Below are positions 51,689 through 61,282 of a DNA stretch of 64,000 nt, piece by piece. Under the pieces are notes generated by a model that saw nothing but the letters and a program-made list of their open reading frames with translations, was not told the origin of the DNA and ran no database searches. Position 1 is the stretch's first letter; every line of letters begins with the position of its first letter. Source of the DNA: Nitrospirota bacterium (lineage in GTDB: Bacteria; Nitrospirota; Thermodesulfovibrionia; Thermodesulfovibrionales; Magnetobacteriaceae); the NCBI GenBank assembly GCA_015233895.1, contig JADFXG010000004.1:62001-126000 (forward strand). The letters are read 5' to 3'. The position numbers were made by a program, and so were the translations under genes.

Positions 51689-52459
51689 TTATATTGCACT
51701 GAGATAGCAGCTTATTTTAGCTTTGTTAACAACAATATTATTAGAATCATTTCCACTTATTAACTCTTTATCTCTGAATTTTGCGAGGATTCTTGTAGCA
51801 ACCACTCTAACCGTACCAACAAATGCTGCGATGTCGCTGTGAGTTAGTTTTACTAAAAATTTGCCGTCCACATCCTCTGAATAATCGTGTAAAAGTCTGA
51901 GAATCCGTGTGTCCAGGGTTTCATAGACAATTTCTTCTGTTTTCAAGTATAAATTTTGCATTTTATTTCCCAACTCTTCTAAAAACATTGGACCGTATTT
52001 ATCAAATTTTGACATCAGCACCCTTTTATAAACACTTACTGGCAGGATAAAAACCTCAGAGGCTTCACTTGCTACAGCGTTTAATTGAAGTTTGAGGTCG
52101 TTCAGCAAAAAGAAATTCATTCCTTTGCTGATATATTCAAAAACAAAAATCCTTTTGCTTTTTTTAATCTCCATTTTAACAGAGCCTGATTTTACAAAAA
52201 ACATGAATTTCTGTATGTCCATACTGTTTAATAATAACTTGTGTTTATTTGTTTTTTTTGTCGTTATAGATTTCTTTAAAAACAGAATATCCTCATCGTC
52301 CATAAAAGAAAGCATCGGAAATACTCTTAAATCATTGATAATCTTTTCGTCATAGTGGGATTTTGACAACATCTGGCCGTAAATTGCCGTTATCGCCTCA
52401 CTGTACAACGATAACTTACTTCTTTGCAGCGTTGGCGTGTATGACACGTTAGTCTCCAT
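51689..52459 (-). CDS. Crp/Fnr-family transcription regulator
   Basis: The protein has 256 residues. An unusual N-terminal stretch of about 45 residues precedes a cyclic-nucleotide-binding-like barrel (about 45-160). A C-terminal Crp-type helix-turn-helix holds LTHSDIAAFVGTVRVVATRI. The Fnr cysteines are not seen, so it is not an oxygen-sensing Fe-S Fnr. The ligand is unknown. It stands alone on the minus strand. Confidence 0.88.
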   Translation of the reverse strand: METNVSYTPTLQRSKLSLYSEAITAIYGQMLSKSHYDEKIINDLRVFPMLSFMDDEDILFLKKSITTKKTNKHKLLLNSMDIQKFMFFVKSGSVKMEIKKSKRIFVFEYISKGMNFFLLNDLKLQLNAVASEASEVFILPVSVYKRVLMSKFDKYGPMFLEELGNKMQNLYLKTEEIVYETLDTRILRLLHDYSEDVDGKFLVKLTHSDIAAFVGTVRVVATRILAKFRDKELISGNDSNNIVVNKAKISCYLSAI

Positions 52460-52869
52460 TTATTACTACCCTCCATTTGTTGAAATGCTAAAAAGCGTAG
52501 TATCAGAGTAACATGGCAACACTTACAGATGACTTACAGATTTGGAATTTTTTTGGGGGACCGTTATTATGTTATACCGAGTTGCTGCCAAAAAGGTAAT
52601 ATAATGTAATGGTGGAGAAAAAGGACTGGATCCCGCAACAAGTGCGGGATGACAAAGGGTGGTGCGGGATGACAAAGGGTGGTGCGGGATGACAAAGGAT
52701 GGTGCGGGATGACAAAGGATGGTGGGGTTACTCTCCTATCATTCTGTCCCTTTCCTGTCATTCCTGCGAAGGCAGGAATCCATGTCTTTTATTTATATCT
52801 TTGAGCGTAACTTGGTATTAACTATTGGTAGATGGTTTTCTGAGAAATAAAAACTTATGGGAAAAAACA
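52460..52869. other. gene-free stretch with short tandem and inverted repeats
   Basis: About 400 bases with no convincing gene. It contains the 20-base tandem repeat at 52642-52721 and two hairpins, ATCCCGCA...TGCGGGAT at 52630-52650 and ATTCCTGC...GCAGGAAT at 52760-52779. The open frame across it on the minus strand is made of repeat units and is not a gene. Confidence 0.7.
52630..52779. repeat. inverted-repeat element with 20-bp tandem units
   Basis: At the left is a hairpin with 8-base arms ATCCCGCA and TGCGGGAT (52630-52637 and 52643-52650). Four units of 20 bases, GTGCGGGATGACAAAGGGTG and close variants, follow at 52642-52721. At the right is a second hairpin with arms ATTCCTGC and GCAGGAAT (52760-52767 and 52772-52779). 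The flanks TGGAT...ATGACA and TGTCAT...ATCCA are inverted copies. This looks like a composite of dispersed intergenic repeats. Confidence 0.75.
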
Positions 52870-53001
52870 TTAACTGCAAAGGTAATCTCCATAATATATT
52901 TCGTCATCTTCAACTACAGATTTAACAAATTCCTCATCATCCATTCTGAATACACCAAAGTAGTTGTCGGTTTCATCAAGAAAATAAATCTTAAAATCCA
53001 T
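52870..53001 (-). CDS. 43-residue acidic protein coupled to the STAND-BTAD regulator
   Basis: A small gene starts at ATG 53001 with GGAGG about 9 bases upstream and overlaps the end of the large regulator by 11 bases. It encodes MDFKIYFLDETDNYFGVFRM and continues for another 23 residues, mostly acidic and aromatic, ending in EIYYGDYLCS. No family is recognised. The overlap and ribosome binding site support translation together with the regulator; it might modulate it. Confidence 0.55.
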   Translation of the reverse strand: MDFKIYFLDETDNYFGVFRMDDEEFVKSVVEDDEIYYGDYLCS

Positions 53002-56000
53002 CACTTTTTTCCTCCAAAAACGCAATTTTAACCTTATACGTTTCCCCGTTATCAGTATCAGTTTCAATTAACTTGCGGTAGCACATGAGAGCAGCCTCCC
53101 ATTTTTTATGTTTTATAAAGAACTGCCCTGAGGTTTTACAATAATTAATGAATTTTTGTTTTATCTTTTCTCTGTTAGCTAAAGCCCAGGGTTTATCCTC
53201 ATCAGCCGGCAGAAAATCTCCCCTATAGAGGTCTAAAGCCTGTTCAAACAAAGCGAAAACAGTATCACAATTGTTTTCTTTTGTATCGTTTTTCAAAAGC
53301 TGTTCCGATTTCTTTAACAAATGCTCAAGTGCAAACACATCACTCCATACGACTTTACGATTAAGCTTAATATAACCGTTTGAGTAATTGATGACATCCT
53401 TATTTTGAAAAAAGCTGCGCAGACGGTGAAGTGTTGTGTTAAATGATATTTGAGCAAGGTCTCCGTCAGAATCCGGCCACAGAGTGTCTGCAATGCACTG
53501 TCCGGGCTGCTCCATGCTGCCAAAAGAAGTCAAAGCCTTTAACAATGAAAACGGCATCTTTTGAACTTTGCCTGACAAAGACACCGGCCTGCCGTCAACT
53601 TGTATCTGAAATCGTCCTAAGGCATATATTTTAACCTGCCACGGCCAGTCCTTTATTTCCATACACGAGTCATCGGCAGTCATGCCAATGCTTTTTATGA
53701 CAGACTTTACATAGTCAACTTCAATGCCAAGAGCCAGTGCCTTTTTATATATTAGAAAGTTTGCCGGATAAAAATAACTGAAGATGAAAGCTCCATTTTG
53801 TTTTGAAAACTCAATAGCTTCCTTAAAATAATCGCTAAACGATGTGTCATCTCCGGTATGTGCACTTATCAGAGATTTCATTATAAGACATAGATATTCT
53901 GCAAACGGGCTTTTTGTGCGCTTTCCAATTTCCATAATTTTAAGAAAATACCTATCGGTTTTCTCATATTGGCCTGCTTCAATCAAGACATTAACCAACG
54001 CATAGGTATGAATCATTGCAAGAAATGGGGAGCCGGATTCCACTGCCGCTTTTAGCGAGTTCTCGGCATAGTATATAGCCTCAGAGAATTTACCACAGCG
54101 TGCGGCTATCAGTGATGATTGATGGTTGTAGTATATAAGTTCAAAACTTTGGAAGGTCTTTCTTGACTCCAACATTCTATTTAGGTATTCCTGAGCTTTA
54201 TTAACATCGTCTTTTTGCAGTAGTGCATGGATCATCTGTCCGTACAACGCAAGCTCAAGAAATTCTATTCCGGTATCACTGGAAATAGTTAATCCCTCTT
54301 CTACAGCCTTAATCATCTCATCGGGCTGGCATGCAATTAGATAATACAAGGCCTTTGTTCTTAAATACATTAATTTTTGCAAATCCGAATATTTCTTATA
54401 CTCTGGATACAGGGTATCCAAAACTCCTTTGGCAGCATTAGCTCTGCCATTCCATATATAGTAAAAAATTAAATTGGAGCCTAAAAATAGTTTATTGGTG
54501 CTGCTACTGTCATTATTTATTATCTTAAGTGCATGTGACTCAAACCTGGTCATCATATAGTGGCCTGGATCTCTAAAAAGCAGTGCAGAAAAAACGCTTG
54601 CAATAACACGCTCCTCTACATCTTTTGAGGGAAATTGCGCCTCCATGTCATAAATGTTTTCAAATTCCTCTATCCAGTAATCCAGTGGAGCAAAATTTCT
54701 TAATTCATAAGTGTATGTGTTTACGATATTGGACCAACTTAAAAAAATGCCGCAATAATAATTTAATTCTTTGAATTTCTTATATGATGTTTCAAAGTAA
54801 AGCCTTGCTTCAAGCGGATTTTCCGAAAGCAGACACGTCCCTTTCCAATAGATAACCCACGGGTTTGCGTTTATAACAGACTCCGGCACACCCTCGATAC
54901 ATTCAATAACGAGTTTTGTGCGTCCCTGATCTAACAGCGTCTTAACATTGAGGTAAATAATATTTATAAGCCTGTCCCATGCTTTTACAGCACTGTATAG
55001 TTTGGCGGCCTCATAAAAAAAGCCGTGTTTTTCAAGAGCCTGAGCCGTCTTAAATTGCAACTCAGCGTATTTTTCACCCAGTGTTTCCCTCGCATGGACT
55101 TTGAGAAACTCGCTGAACAGATCGTGATATTTATACGACCTGCCGCCGACTTTGCGAACCTCCGTAAAAAAAGGATGATTTGTAAGATACTGCAGGATTC
55201 GTTTAGCTGATGTGCCGCCAGTTAGCTCATTGGCCAATTCCACAGTAATTTCAGGACACAGGCTGGTCTTTATGAGAAAATCCTTTATAAGGGGATCTTT
55301 TTGCTCAAAAATCTCTTCTGATAAATAACTGAAAATCTCCTCATTTGACATATCCCGGCTCAAAGGCTCAATGTCATCAGCTTCAGTTAACCTCTTAGAT
55401 AATAAGACTATCCCAGATGCCCATCCTCTGGTAACATTGTGTAACACTCTAAAATTATCTTCCGTTACGACACCCCTAACACCAAGATTTACAAGCTCCT
55501 TTGTCTCCTCAAGCGTAAAAAATACGTTTTCCCAATAAAGACTGTTAAGCATACCGGAGACTTTTAGTGATGAGTACGCAGAGGGAGCATGCGTTCTGCT
55601 TATTACTATTATTTTAAGCCATTGTGGGATAACCGAAAAGGATCGCAGCAGACTGTCATGAAACAAATCATCAGTAACGGTATGAAAATCGTCAAAGACA
55701 ATTATAGTTGTTTTTTTTAATAAACTGTAAAGCTCCTCGAAATAATTTAATACAAATGTGTGCAGCCCATATTCATTTGTAAGCGTAGGAAGCTCTGTTT
55801 TAAGTCGAAAATTGGTTTTTACCGCTAATCCAATGTGATAAAAAAATGACGACAGCTCATTGTCCCTTTCATCAATCCTGTACCACAGACAGGGGGATTT
55901 CTTATGCTCGATATAAGAGGAGACGAGAGTAGTTTTACCGGAACCGGCAGGGGCCGAAATCCACAGTATAGGCGCAGAGGAAAACAACGATTCTACCTCA

Positions 56001-56119
56001 TTAAAAAGTCTTTTCCTTTTTAATATCTTTTTGTAAACAGGCCTCGTCAGCTTTGACGAGTATTTTTGTAACATGACGCTGCCGTCTTGCGCTAAGGCGC
56101 CCTTTGCTAAATTGTGCAA
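52991..56119 (-). CDS. MalT-like STAND ATPase with C-terminal BTAD/SARP-type DNA-binding region
   Basis: This is a 1042-residue signal-transduction regulator. The N-terminal NTPase domain has the Walker A motif in ISAPAGSGKTTLVSSY (residues 59-64) and a Walker B motif in TTIIVFDDFHTVTD. A long TPR-like superhelix follows at about 350-800. The C-terminus, about 824-1042, has an OmpR-like winged helix (KIYALGRFQIQVDGRPVSLS) and a bacterial transcriptional activation domain (LFEQALDLYRGDFLPADEDK). STAND regulators act as inducer-triggered switches. It starts 40 bases after the alpha/beta-hydrolase stop and shares its operon. Confidence 0.9.
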   Translation of the reverse strand: MHNLAKGALAQDGSVMLQKYSSKLTRPVYKKILKRKRLFNEVESLFSSAPILWISAPAGSGKTTLVSSYIEHKKSPCLWYRIDERDNELSSFFYHIGLAVKTNFRLKTELPTLTNEYGLHTFVLNYFEELYSLLKKTTIIVFDDFHTVTDDLFHDSLLRSFSVIPQWLKIIVISRTHAPSAYSSLKVSGMLNSLYWENVFFTLEETKELVNLGVRGVVTEDNFRVLHNVTRGWASGIVLLSKRLTEADDIEPLSRDMSNEEIFSYLSEEIFEQKDPLIKDFLIKTSLCPEITVELANELTGGTSAKRILQYLTNHPFFTEVRKVGGRSYKYHDLFSEFLKVHARETLGEKYAELQFKTAQALEKHGFFYEAAKLYSAVKAWDRLINIIYLNVKTLLDQGRTKLVIECIEGVPESVINANPWVIYWKGTCLLSENPLEARLYFETSYKKFKELNYYCGIFLSWSNIVNTYTYELRNFAPLDYWIEEFENIYDMEAQFPSKDVEERVIASVFSALLFRDPGHYMMTRFESHALKIINNDSSSTNKLFLGSNLIFYYIWNGRANAAKGVLDTLYPEYKKYSDLQKLMYLRTKALYYLIACQPDEMIKAVEEGLTISSDTGIEFLELALYGQMIHALLQKDDVNKAQEYLNRMLESRKTFQSFELIYYNHQSSLIAARCGKFSEAIYYAENSLKAAVESGSPFLAMIHTYALVNVLIEAGQYEKTDRYFLKIMEIGKRTKSPFAEYLCLIMKSLISAHTGDDTSFSDYFKEAIEFSKQNGAFIFSYFYPANFLIYKKALALGIEVDYVKSVIKSIGMTADDSCMEIKDWPWQVKIYALGRFQIQVDGRPVSLSGKVQKMPFSLLKALTSFGSMEQPGQCIADTLWPDSDGDLAQISFNTTLHRLRSFFQNKDVINYSNGYIKLNRKVVWSDVFALEHLLKKSEQLLKNDTKENNCDTVFALFEQALDLYRGDFLPADEDKPWALANREKIKQKFINYCKTSGQFFIKHKKWEAALMCYRKLIETDTDNGETYKVKIAFLEEKSDGF

Positions 56120-56158: not shown

Positions 56159-57028
56159 TTAGTGTGTATTTAAAAAGTCATTGAGTATCCTGAAAAATTC
56201 CTCCTTTTGTTCGATGTGATAACAGTGTGATGCACCCTCAATTACGTAAAACTGTGAATCTCTTGTGTTTCTGTGATAATTCTTAACCGTATCAGGGTGA
56301 ATCTCGTCGTGTTGGCCACAGATATAAATCACAGGCAGGATTATATCTTTTAGTCTGTCTGTTAAATCAAAATCAGCGATTACACCATCCTGATGAAACG
56401 CACTTTGACCTACAAAGCGGCTGAATATCAGGTGATTTATACAGGCTGCACTTCTAAGTAAGCAGTCTGGCCAGGGCTGAGTCACACAGAAATGATGGCT
56501 ATAGAAAACCATCATAGCCTCGTTATATTTATCTGATGTGAAATCCACCTGAGTGCGGCAATTATTAAGAGTGTCCCGCACATCTTTAGGCAGCGACTCC
56601 ACCCGCCGTAACATATCCGATGTGAGAGTTTTAGCATTTAACACAGGGCTTGCCATAATCAGACTTGCTATATAGCCAGGGGTTCTGTCTAATACAAAAG
56701 AAAGGGAAATCATAGCGGAAACACAATGAGCTAATATGTGGTATTTGGGATAATTCAACTCTTTACAGAGCGCATCTATCTCATCAAAAAAAACGTCAAA
56801 TGTCCACTCTGAGATATTTACATTTCCACCAGAGTTTCCGCACCCTCTTTGATCGTAAAAAATCACCGGTCTGTCTGAGGAAAGCTCAGAAATTGGCTCC
56901 ATGTAGTCATGCGAAAGAGCAATTCCATTTACTACCAGCAGCGGCACACCCGGTTTATCGGCCCCATAGACCGAGTACCAGAGGTTATAGTCCGGCATAT
57001 TTACATACCCAGTTTTTAAATCAACCAC
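56159..57028 (-). CDS. alpha/beta-hydrolase, proline iminopeptidase-like, with Cys at the nucleophile position
   Basis: The protein has about 289 residues with an alpha/beta-hydrolase fold. Conserved parts are VIFYDQRGCGNSGG, the acid in ICGQHDEIHPDT and the His in GASHCYHIEQKEEF. At the nucleophile elbow the sequence is HILAHCVSAMIS; alignment with the family's GQSWGGM places a Cys (about residue 102) where the Ser should be. The start chosen is GTG 57028, with GAGG and AGGAG just upstream; TTG 57064 is the alternative. It is the first gene of an operon with the STAND regulator. Its substrate may be the regulator's signal; that is inference. Confidence 0.82.
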   Translation of the reverse strand: MVDLKTGYVNMPDYNLWYSVYGADKPGVPLLVVNGIALSHDYMEPISELSSDRPVIFYDQRGCGNSGGNVNISEWTFDVFFDEIDALCKELNYPKYHILAHCVSAMISLSFVLDRTPGYIASLIMASPVLNAKTLTSDMLRRVESLPKDVRDTLNNCRTQVDFTSDKYNEAMMVFYSHHFCVTQPWPDCLLRSAACINHLIFSRFVGQSAFHQDGVIADFDLTDRLKDIILPVIYICGQHDEIHPDTVKNYHRNTRDSQFYVIEGASHCYHIEQKEEFFRILNDFLNTH

Positions 57029-57058
57029 GCTCCTACCCTCAAGCTTTACAACATAAAC

Positions 57059-57156
57059 ACACAAAAATCACCAAAATGTTTAGTTGCAATAACAGCTATG
57101 CAAATAAAGCGCCAGAACCACCCTTCAGAAATAGTACACAAAAGTCACCAAAATGT
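57059..57156. repeat. two 21-bp direct repeats at the hydrolase promoter
   Basis: The 21-base element ACACAAAA-A/G-TCACCAAAATGT occurs at 57059-57079 and at 57136-57156, with one mismatch. The copies are 77 bases apart. The right copy falls on the spacer between the -35 and -10 boxes of the hydrolase operon promoter. They look like a pair of operator sites, possibly for the STAND-BTAD regulator. Confidence 0.75.
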
Positions 57157-57159
57157 CAA
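57131..57159 (-). promoter_or_regulatory. promoter of the hydrolase-STAND regulator operon
   Basis: On the minus strand TTGACA (57154-57159, perfect) and TACTAT (57131-57136) are separated by 17 bases. The spacer is one copy of the 21-base direct repeat. Transcription would start about 100 bases before the hydrolase gene. Confidence 0.7.
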
Positions 57160-57182
57160 GATAAAATTTAAAATCTTTGTCT

Positions 57183-57212
57183 TTTACATTTTTAAATAGC
57201 ATTTGGTATAAT
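57183..57212 (+). promoter_or_regulatory. promoter of the coiled-coil membrane protein gene
   Basis: TTTACA (57183-57188) and a perfect TATAAT with an upstream TGG (57207-57212) are separated by 18 bases. Transcription would begin near 57219, which is the ATG itself, so the mRNA may be leaderless. Confidence 0.6.
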
Positions 57213-57218
57213 ACTCAT

Positions 57219-57527
57219 ATGGCAACTAAGATTGATATGCTGGAGGTGTTTGAAAGGCTTAAAGCAGCAGAACTAAGCAAGAAAGCGGCTAACGAGATTG
57301 TTGAAAAACCCGCCACAAGATCAGATGTTGATGAAATCTTAATCGAGTTAAAGAAAGTTCTTGCGACAAAAGCAGATTTAAAAGCTGAGGTTGACAGATT
57401 GATTGCTCAGCTTAAAAAGACCAGGCTTGTTATAATGATAAATTTTATACTCATTGCTTTGCTCATTATTGCAAATAACAGTGGGGTTTTAAACCATATA
57501 ACCAGTCTGTTGGGTATTGATAAATAA
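57219..57527 (+). CDS. coiled-coil protein with C-terminal membrane helix
   Basis: The protein has 102 residues: a helical region (MATKIDMLEVFERLKAAELS), then a coiled coil with KADLKAEVDRLIAQLKKTRL, then a hydrophobic helix, VIMINFILIALLIIANN, near the end. It resembles small DUF1640-type coiled-coil membrane proteins, but I do not recognise it with certainty. The ATG at 57219 has no ribosome binding site and sits where transcription should start. A TTG at 57177 would extend it into the promoter and is unlikely. The gene lies just upstream of the SRP RNA. Confidence 0.6.
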   Translation: MATKIDMLEVFERLKAAELSKKAANEIVEKPATRSDVDEILIELKKVLATKADLKAEVDRLIAQLKKTRLVIMINFILIALLIIANNSGVLNHITSLLGIDK

Positions 57528-57541
57528 CTCTGGGATGTCAA

Positions 57542-57674
57542 CTTTCTTCAATGCAGTCGGGCAATGGCCCTGTGCAACGGCGCGGTGTGAACCCCGTCAG
57601 GCCCGGAAGGGAGCAGCGGTAAGCGCTTGCTACGTGTGCCACAGTAAGTCTTTGCCCGGTTGCATTGAGGAAAG
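57542..57674 (+). ncRNA. ffs: signal recognition particle RNA (4.5S, small bacterial type)
   Basis: The conserved SRP tip is clear: GTCAGGCCCGGAAGGGAGCA at about 57596-57615, with the partner side GTAAGCGCTTGCTACG just after. The outer stem is formed by CTTTCTTCAATGCAG with CGGGCAA on the 5' side and TTGCCCGGTTGCATTGAGG plus AAAG on the 3' side. The RNA binds Ffh and targets membrane proteins. The ends are set by this stem and could be shorter. It lies directly upstream of dnaX, a common arrangement. Confidence 0.93.
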
Positions 57675-60397: not shown

Positions 60398-61282
60398 GTG
60401 CATCAAAAGTATGACTTAACTCTCAAGAAATTACTAAAAGATATACCGGCTAAGTTTCTTAAAATTCTAACCGGATATGAGACCGGGAAGTTTCTTGACA
60501 TTCAATTGCCAAACATTCAGTATTGGCTACCGGATTTAATTATTGAGCTGCCTGACTGCAGCATTTTGCATATAGAGATTCAAAGCGCCTCAGATGGCAC
60601 GATGTTAATGCGGATGTATCTGTATTCGGCTCTTATTTTTAGCCAGTATGGGAGAATGCCGAGACAAATTGTTTTGTACGTAGGTAATAAACCCCACAAA
60701 ATGAAAAATGAGATAGGTACATATTCATACGAGATAAAGGATATCCGTGACATAAACTGTTCTGAACTGCTACAGAGTGATAAACCTGAGGATACGGTGT
60801 TAGCGCTTCTGTGTAACTCAGACAATATGGATGTTACTATAACCAAAATTTTAGAAAAGTTATCCACATTACCGATAAAAACAATGAATGATTACATAGT
60901 AAAATTGTTGAACATTGCAGATTTACGGAAATTGGCTGACAAAGTAAAAAAGGAGGTAAAAAATATGCCTATAACTATTGATGTAAGAGAGAGCACGCTT
61001 TTTCAGGAAGGGTTGATTGCGGGAAAACAAGAAGGGCTGATTACTGGAAAACAAGAAGGGCTGATTGCAGGAAAGCAGGAAGGGTTATTTGAGGGCAAGC
61101 GGCAAGGGTTACTTGAGGGAATTGAGTTAGGACTTGAACTCAAATTTGGCTTGGCCGGACTGGATTTAATGAACATAGTCAGAGCAGTAAATACTCTGGA
61201 TAAATTAGAGGAATTCAAAAATCTTATTAAAACAGCCAGCTCCGTTGAGGCATTGAAGGAGTTTTTGTCTAAAAGTGTATGA
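60398..61282 (+). CDS. Rpn-family PD-(D/E)XK nuclease-like protein, copy 3
   Basis: The protein has 294 residues starting at GTG 60398 with GGAGAG upstream. It is a more diverged paralogue of the two copies at 32996 and 44244. Nuclease residues are in LPDLIIEL and ILHIEIQSAS. The linker has five degenerate 24-base units (61007-61126) coding for Glu-Gly-Leu-Ile-Ala-Gly-Lys-Gln-type repeats. The C-terminal ELGLELKFGLAGLDLMNIVR matches the other copies. Its stop overlaps the upstream part of the frame of the CheY-like gene, which follows directly. Confidence 0.87.
   Translation: MHQKYDLTLKKLLKDIPAKFLKILTGYETGKFLDIQLPNIQYWLPDLIIELPDCSILHIEIQSASDGTMLMRMYLYSALIFSQYGRMPRQIVLYVGNKPHKMKNEIGTYSYEIKDIRDINCSELLQSDKPEDTVLALLCNSDNMDVTITKILEKLSTLPIKTMNDYIVKLLNIADLRKLADKVKKEVKNMPITIDVRESTLFQEGLIAGKQEGLITGKQEGLIAGKQEGLFEGKRQGLLEGIELGLELKFGLAGLDLMNIVRAVNTLDKLEEFKNLIKTASSVEALKEFLSKSV

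Follow-up and report, generated by a model that had tools for sequence, protein, structure and literature searches.

The promoter of a hydrolase-STAND operon in a magnetotactic Nitrospirota bacterium carries two nearly identical 21-bp elements, one on the core promoter and the other in the predicted leader, which probably serve, at the level of the DNA, as a pair of protein-binding sites. The operon lies in a 64,000-nucleotide stretch, hereafter the window, of the 3.7-Mb host genome (G000). The explanation tentatively placed first is that the operon's own STAND/SARP regulator binds the elements as a pair of operators, in a negative autoregulatory loop of the hydrolase-STAND module; we infer that a protein binds, which protein it is, that it represses and what the second copy does. 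Autoregulation, as the first-pass annotation proposed it, is reasonable but unproven. Two operators and self-control are an ordinary principle, a common kind of circuit in an unusual bacterium. If the explanation is true, a class of large STAND regulators outside actinomycetes, those whose SARP domain is C-terminal, would gain a concrete site on DNA, at a promoter simple enough for rebuilding in a laboratory strain, and it would also become clear whether SARP domains can repress.

The twin elements and their promoter

Copy 1, ACATTTTGGTGACTTTTGTGT, lies at 57136-57156 on the minus strand, about -32 to -12 relative to the inferred start, and copy 2, ACATTTTGGTGATTTTTGTGT, lies at 57059-57079 of the same strand, within the predicted 5' leader at about +46 to +66. 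The copies are identical at 20/21 positions with a start-to-start distance of 77 bp, and their flanks differ sharply, the match being confined to exactly 21 bp. When the 182-bp intergenic region was shuffled 3000 times with its dinucleotides preserved, no 21-mer pair matched at more than 18/21 positions, and the near-identical pair 77 bases apart that had been pointed out on first reading (57156-57136 and 57079-57059) is thus borne out. The remaining strong repeats at close range in the window are for the most part tandem, with a spacing of 21-48 bp (this holds at least for those within an ORF at 61 kb), and one is a dispersed repeat at 52.6 kb.

The promoter consists of a -35 hexamer TTGACA (57154-57159, minus strand), identical in the sister species, and a -10 hexamer TACTAT (57131-57136, minus strand); with its 17-bp spacer it agrees with the consensus at 10 of 12 positions, and transcription of the operon would start near 57124. 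The interval 57028-57159 has the hydrolase's likely GTG start at one end and the first base of the -35 box at the other. Copy 1 takes in the ACA of the -35 box, all of the 17-bp spacer and the T with which the -10 box begins; the earlier description of an element filling the TTGACA-17-TACTAT spacer is therefore right, the edges of both boxes being included as well. Because copy 1 is upstream of the inferred start and copy 2 downstream of it, a function common to the two must act on DNA, not RNA.

An action of copy 2 in RNA, the match of copy 1 being incidental, is improbable. Here copy 2 would sit in the loop of a leader hairpin, with a longer stem pairing with the ribosome-binding site. A possible, weak hairpin at 57045-57089 (minus strand), with the stem UUGCAACUAAACA / UGUUUAUGUUGUAA and the middle of copy 2 in its loop, has a local folding energy of -11.0 kcal/mol (z -2.4) in the host and a z of -2.0 in the sister species; the same local fold thus occurs in both, and the entire leader is conserved, not the elements alone. 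However, the fold of the whole leader is not significant (z -1.5 and -0.9), compensatory changes are lacking, and copy 1, although not transcribed from this promoter, matches copy 2 at 20/21 positions and has changed in step with it. A leader RNA element was rejected on these weak fold statistics.

The internal symmetry of the element can be read in two ways. An 11-bp direct repeat is matched at 7/10 positions in copy 1 (p 0.009) and at 6/10 in copy 2 (p 0.09), and the element is also an imperfect odd-centred palindrome, ACA-N5-GTNAC-N5-TGT (p 0.014 for copy 1 and 0.065 for copy 2), all of these values being uncorrected for the several models tried. The palindrome fits about as well as the direct repeat, and a lag of 9 scores similarly to a lag of 11. 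The palindrome has its exact centre at the base in which both copies differ between the host and its sister species. Internal symmetry does not settle which protein binds the element.

Inheritance and occurrence of the pair

The sister species, Nitrospirae MAG nDJH6bin1 (G003), belongs to the same genus as the host and has been grouped with Ca. Magnetomonas plexicatena LBB01 in Ca. Magnetobacteriaceae (PMC9376291). The comparison of orthologous operons comprises these two genomes. At the orthologous promoter of the sister species both copies read ACATTTTGGTTACTTTTGTGT and are mutually identical, with a spacing of 76 bp. Relative to the host, the same G to T change is found at position 11 of both copies, and the C/T difference between the two host copies is absent. 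Under a simple uniform model, the chance of a shared identical change is ~0.03 and that of full identity ~0.0005. The matching change could be explained by co-evolution with one binding protein or by gene conversion between the copies.

Between the two species the promoter and leader have accumulated 6 changes in 132 bp, as against 158 in 839 synonymous sites of both genes (p ~1e-5), and the adjacent segment 57160-57218 shows 9 differences in 59 (p 0.018). The elements are no more conserved than the remaining leader (3 changes in 42 positions versus 3 in 90). In the sister species the STAND gene is split in the assembly by a 1-nt deletion or frameshift (position 7362 of L048), both halves looking constrained; since dN/dS over the whole gene is near 0.2, the frameshift is either an assembly error or recent.

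The operon occupies the minus strand on one side of the site, and on the other lie a divergent small ORF and then the SRP RNA (57561-57658) and dnaX. In a third congener (G001), the small ORF, SRP RNA and dnaX are present, and the operon and the elements are missing. Homology with this genome starts at 57160, one base outside the -35 box. Because it breaks there, in a genome without the operon, the twin elements belong to the hydrolase-STAND cassette. A close relative of the hydrolase is encoded in only nine of the 176 genomes of the order, and two of the nine have this operon.

Besides the pair, the host genome contains no site with two or fewer mismatches to the element; at up to three mismatches it yields the pair and one 3-mismatch site, a level that controls also reach. 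Among the 19 genomes of the family comparison set, exact matches are restricted to the host and the sister species, each time as a pair at this promoter, and 2.9 million viral contigs gave four single matches and never a pair. Relaxed patterns, whether palindrome or 11-bp direct repeat, show no real excess over reversed controls in the genome. A dispersed repeat or MITE was ruled out by the two-copy count in the genome and by the family pattern searches, and the first-pass annotation's own caveat, that the repeat might be a dispersed element unrelated to this promoter, falls away with the uniqueness of the pair. The search for further copies that it advised as a way to the regulon revealed no recognisable regulon in the genome, and a wider regulon was rejected with the relaxed patterns at control level.

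These data also bear on the view that the repeat arose by local duplication, or as a dispersed element, and has no regulatory role, for which the probability appears very low. There are just two copies, close together, and gene conversion could maintain their identity. The repeat is, however, absent elsewhere in the genome, its flanks do not match, it is placed exactly on a core promoter, and the pair has been retained at the same place in the second species at a dS of ~0.2.

In relatives, eight further hydrolase-led promoters and 18 regions upstream of STAND genes have no twin repeats of this kind; binding of the regulator to its own promoter by way of such a pair is therefore not a trait that the family shares. 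The lack of a pair at the other STAND operons examined counts in favour of a different binder, wherein the elements are paired operators for an unrelated factor encoded elsewhere, such as an unlinked repressor, and not for the STAND protein. The palindrome reading (p about 0.01) would likewise describe a dimer-type site, with a species-variable base at its centre. Such a factor would nevertheless have a single genomic target, there being no other site within two mismatches, and local self-control is simpler. Taken alone, control by an unrelated factor is possible but doubtful; an unlinked repressor is nearly as possible as the cis-encoded STAND regulator. Crp/FNR sites are even-length dyads, and the product of a Crp-family gene at 51692-52459 is therefore an unlikely source of the factor.

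A candidate autoregulator

The operon encodes, at 52991-56119 on the minus strand, a STAND regulator with a MalT-like core, TPR and, at about residues 815-1042, a C-terminal SARP domain (winged helix and BTAD). The NCBIfam MalT model NF003420 matches residues 21-422 (E 1e-57) with a score below the MalT equivalog cut-off; for this reason the protein is considered MalT-like, not MalT. A NOD ATPase core and a TPR sensor, which define the STAND/MalT-like class, are both present. So are the OmpR-like winged helix and following BTAD of SARP-type DNA-binding proteins: the BTAD domain scores above the Pfam cut-off, and C-terminal profiles built from 18 and 15 sequences match the AfsR SARP with E 5.5e-8 and 3e-6, as expected from the earlier claim that the operon codes for a BTAD/SARP-type regulator. 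Trans_reg_C was detected in 9/18 members, the window's own sequence alone giving no match. AfsR contacts bases through T88 and R92 (PMC10936776); the positions aligned with these are Thr and Arg, and the Arg is invariant in 18 relatives. An AlphaFold model of the C-terminal domain, computed from only two sequences, has a pLDDT of 56, with the winged helix below 50, too weak to add support.

The first gene of the operon (56162-57028, minus strand) encodes an alpha/beta hydrolase of the proline iminopeptidase family (TIGR01250, E 1e-58; PDB 3nwo, E 7e-38), with a likely GTG start at 57028 preceded by GAGG/GGAG. Its nucleophile Ser is replaced by Cys (AHC for AHS/GHS) and the HGGPG oxyanion loop is lost (VVN-GIA), likewise in the sister species, whereas its relatives retain both. 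With these changes it may serve the STAND protein as a sensor or as a pseudo-enzyme partner. In several genomes of the bacterial family, hydrolase genes of the proline iminopeptidase type adjoin or neighbour STAND genes.

Since the only genomic sites sit on its own promoter, the cis-encoded STAND/SARP regulator is the likeliest binder, and the absence of sites with up to two mismatches elsewhere is as expected for a local regulator. If the elements are indeed paired protein sites, the prospect that the STAND protein binds them is slightly better than even, and, given such binding, repression would be the rather likely sign. A protein on copy 1, reaching from within the -35 box across the spacer to the edge of the -10 box, would exclude RNA polymerase. 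Copy 2, in the transcribed leader, would offer a further point of contact and so reinforce repression, whether through cooperative binding, looping over a short distance or a roadblock; and were the bound protein the cis-encoded STAND/SARP regulator, it would shut its own operon down. The distance of 77 or 76 bp amounts to 7.2-7.3 helical turns, not clearly in phase, so helical phase is not decisive on looping. A perfect -35 box with a normal, 17-bp spacer does not obviously call for an activator, and these two features, together with an element lying right up against the -10, fit repression better than SARP activation. Against autorepression, MalT and SARP proteins are chiefly known as activators.

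In SARP sites the direct repeats have a spacing of 11 or 22 bp and stop ~8 bp short of the -10, and the -35 boxes of such promoters are poor (PMC10936776, PMC4393881); the AfsR box spans -40 to -19 (PMC10936776). Copy 1, by comparison, overlaps the first base of TACTAT; the promoter has TTGACA and a 17-bp spacer where a poor -35 and a lengthened spacer would be expected; and the twin copies are 77 bp apart (76 in the sister species). Any likeness to a SARP site would have to lie within each 21-bp element, as a single box made up of two 11-bp half repeats. The interpretation put forward on first reading survives in part: the elements are promoter-specific, conserved in the ortholog, and come and go with the operon, which does encode a SARP/BTAD-type protein, but the likeness to SARP binding is not supported, as the geometry (77/76 bp, copy 1 abutting the -10, a perfect -35) departs from that of SARP sites.

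The same geometry makes SARP-type autoactivation unlikely. In this scheme the STAND protein would bind direct-repeat boxes and recruit RNA polymerase. In a variant, there is perhaps a second promoter, with the -10 sequence TATGTT (57055-57050) just past copy 2, a start near 57043 and a leader of ~15 nt, copy 1 shutting the upstream promoter. The 11-bp direct repeat in each element (7/10 in copy 1, 6/10 in copy 2), the AfsR-like DNA-binding domain and the poor -35 of the putative second promoter (CATTTT), as at SARP promoters, all favour activation. However, SARP boxes end ~8 bp before the -10 (PMC4393881), whereas copy 1 shares one base with its -10 and only 3 bp separate copy 2 from TATGTT, and the first promoter has a perfect -35 and a normal spacer.

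Several known systems resemble paired operators under autorepression in part. AfsR of Streptomyces likewise has a SARP winged helix and BTAD joined to NOD and TPR, and the afs box is a 21-22 bp site touching the -35 region, with room for two 11-bp direct repeats (PMC10936776). The domain order is reversed here, with the MalT-like core N-terminal and the SARP domain C-terminal; the site lies ~7-9 bp closer to the -10, at a perfect -35 with a normal spacer, and has a second copy 77 bp downstream. The AfsR system activates, whereas repression is the likelier sign here. PimR and other SARP-LAL proteins (PMC5930380) are large ATP-binding SARP-domain regulators with a main and a secondary operator on one promoter, but the operators of PimR are heptamers with 3-4 bp spacers on another gene's promoter, and are activating. 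E. coli MalT and its inhibitor Aes (PMC10427625) provide a precedent for a MalT-like STAND regulator alongside a hydrolase or esterase as potential partner, and by this analogy the STAND protein may have the hydrolase as its partner or inhibitor; the hydrolase belongs, however, to the proline iminopeptidase family and is not Aes, and the DNA-binding domain is SARP, not LuxR-type. A complete sensor module of magnetotactic Nitrospirota, in which the catalytically altered hydrolase senses a ligand for, or inhibits, a STAND protein with a MalT core and a SARP domain, and in which this protein represses its own promoter via the twin boxes, is a long shot, the SARP proteins of the cited papers having the opposite sign, activation.

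Searches of the literature for STAND-BTAD regulators and for SARP autorepression yielded nothing that addresses either directly, and no described DNA site for large STAND regulators with a C-terminal SARP outside actinomycetes was found in it. Negative autoregulation by way of two operators, the first on the core promoter and the second further downstream, is a general bacterial pattern. Like it, the hydrolase-STAND promoter has its site in duplicate, once over the -35/-10 spacer and once in the leader; it differs in that the regulator is a sequence-based candidate and that the spacing is not clearly phased for a loop.

Neighbouring and related loci

The small divergent ORF (57219-57527) encodes a membrane-anchored coiled-coil protein and has a promoter of its own, TTTACA-18-TATAAT, at 57183-57212 on the plus strand. 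Copy 1 lies ~73 bp upstream of the start of the ORF. The start is apparently leaderless, with TATAAT ending 7 bases before the ATG at 57219, and TATAAT is kept in the sister species and in the third congener, the latter without the operon. At the other end of the operon, between the STAND and Crp-family genes, the stretch 52560-52800 is a dispersed repeat with 61 matches in the genome, part of which is missing at the orthologous place in the sister species.

A paralogous hydrolase-STAND operon is found in both species (L046, L047), and at its promoter TTGACA is followed at once by a conserved palindrome in the spacer, ACATTT-N3-AAATGT, possibly an operator of different sequence. Pho-box-like 11-bp TGTAA arrays occur just upstream of TATAAT, ahead of STAND/hydrolase genes, at G011:C124:15106-15143 (L063, L065) and G018:C6:150-176 (L062) in relatives. 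Such arrays were rejected as a STAND binding motif and are regarded as Pho boxes because the same array sits ahead of pstS in the host genome; their position suggests phosphate control of the STAND/hydrolase modules in these two relatives. The hydrolase-STAND promoter of the window has no Pho box (TGTAA/CTGTCA repeats with an 11-bp period). A triple TGTAAGTCATC array with an 11-bp period, at G000:C35:13073-13099 (L066) between methyltransferase-like and PAS/histidine kinase genes, is likely a further Pho-type site.

Elsewhere in the window, an ORF at 60398-61282, whose product we take to resemble Rpn/PD-(D/E)XK transposase-like proteins, contains near its C-terminus an in-frame repeat with an 8-residue period (EGLIAGKQ) that matches the Yae1_N repeat model.
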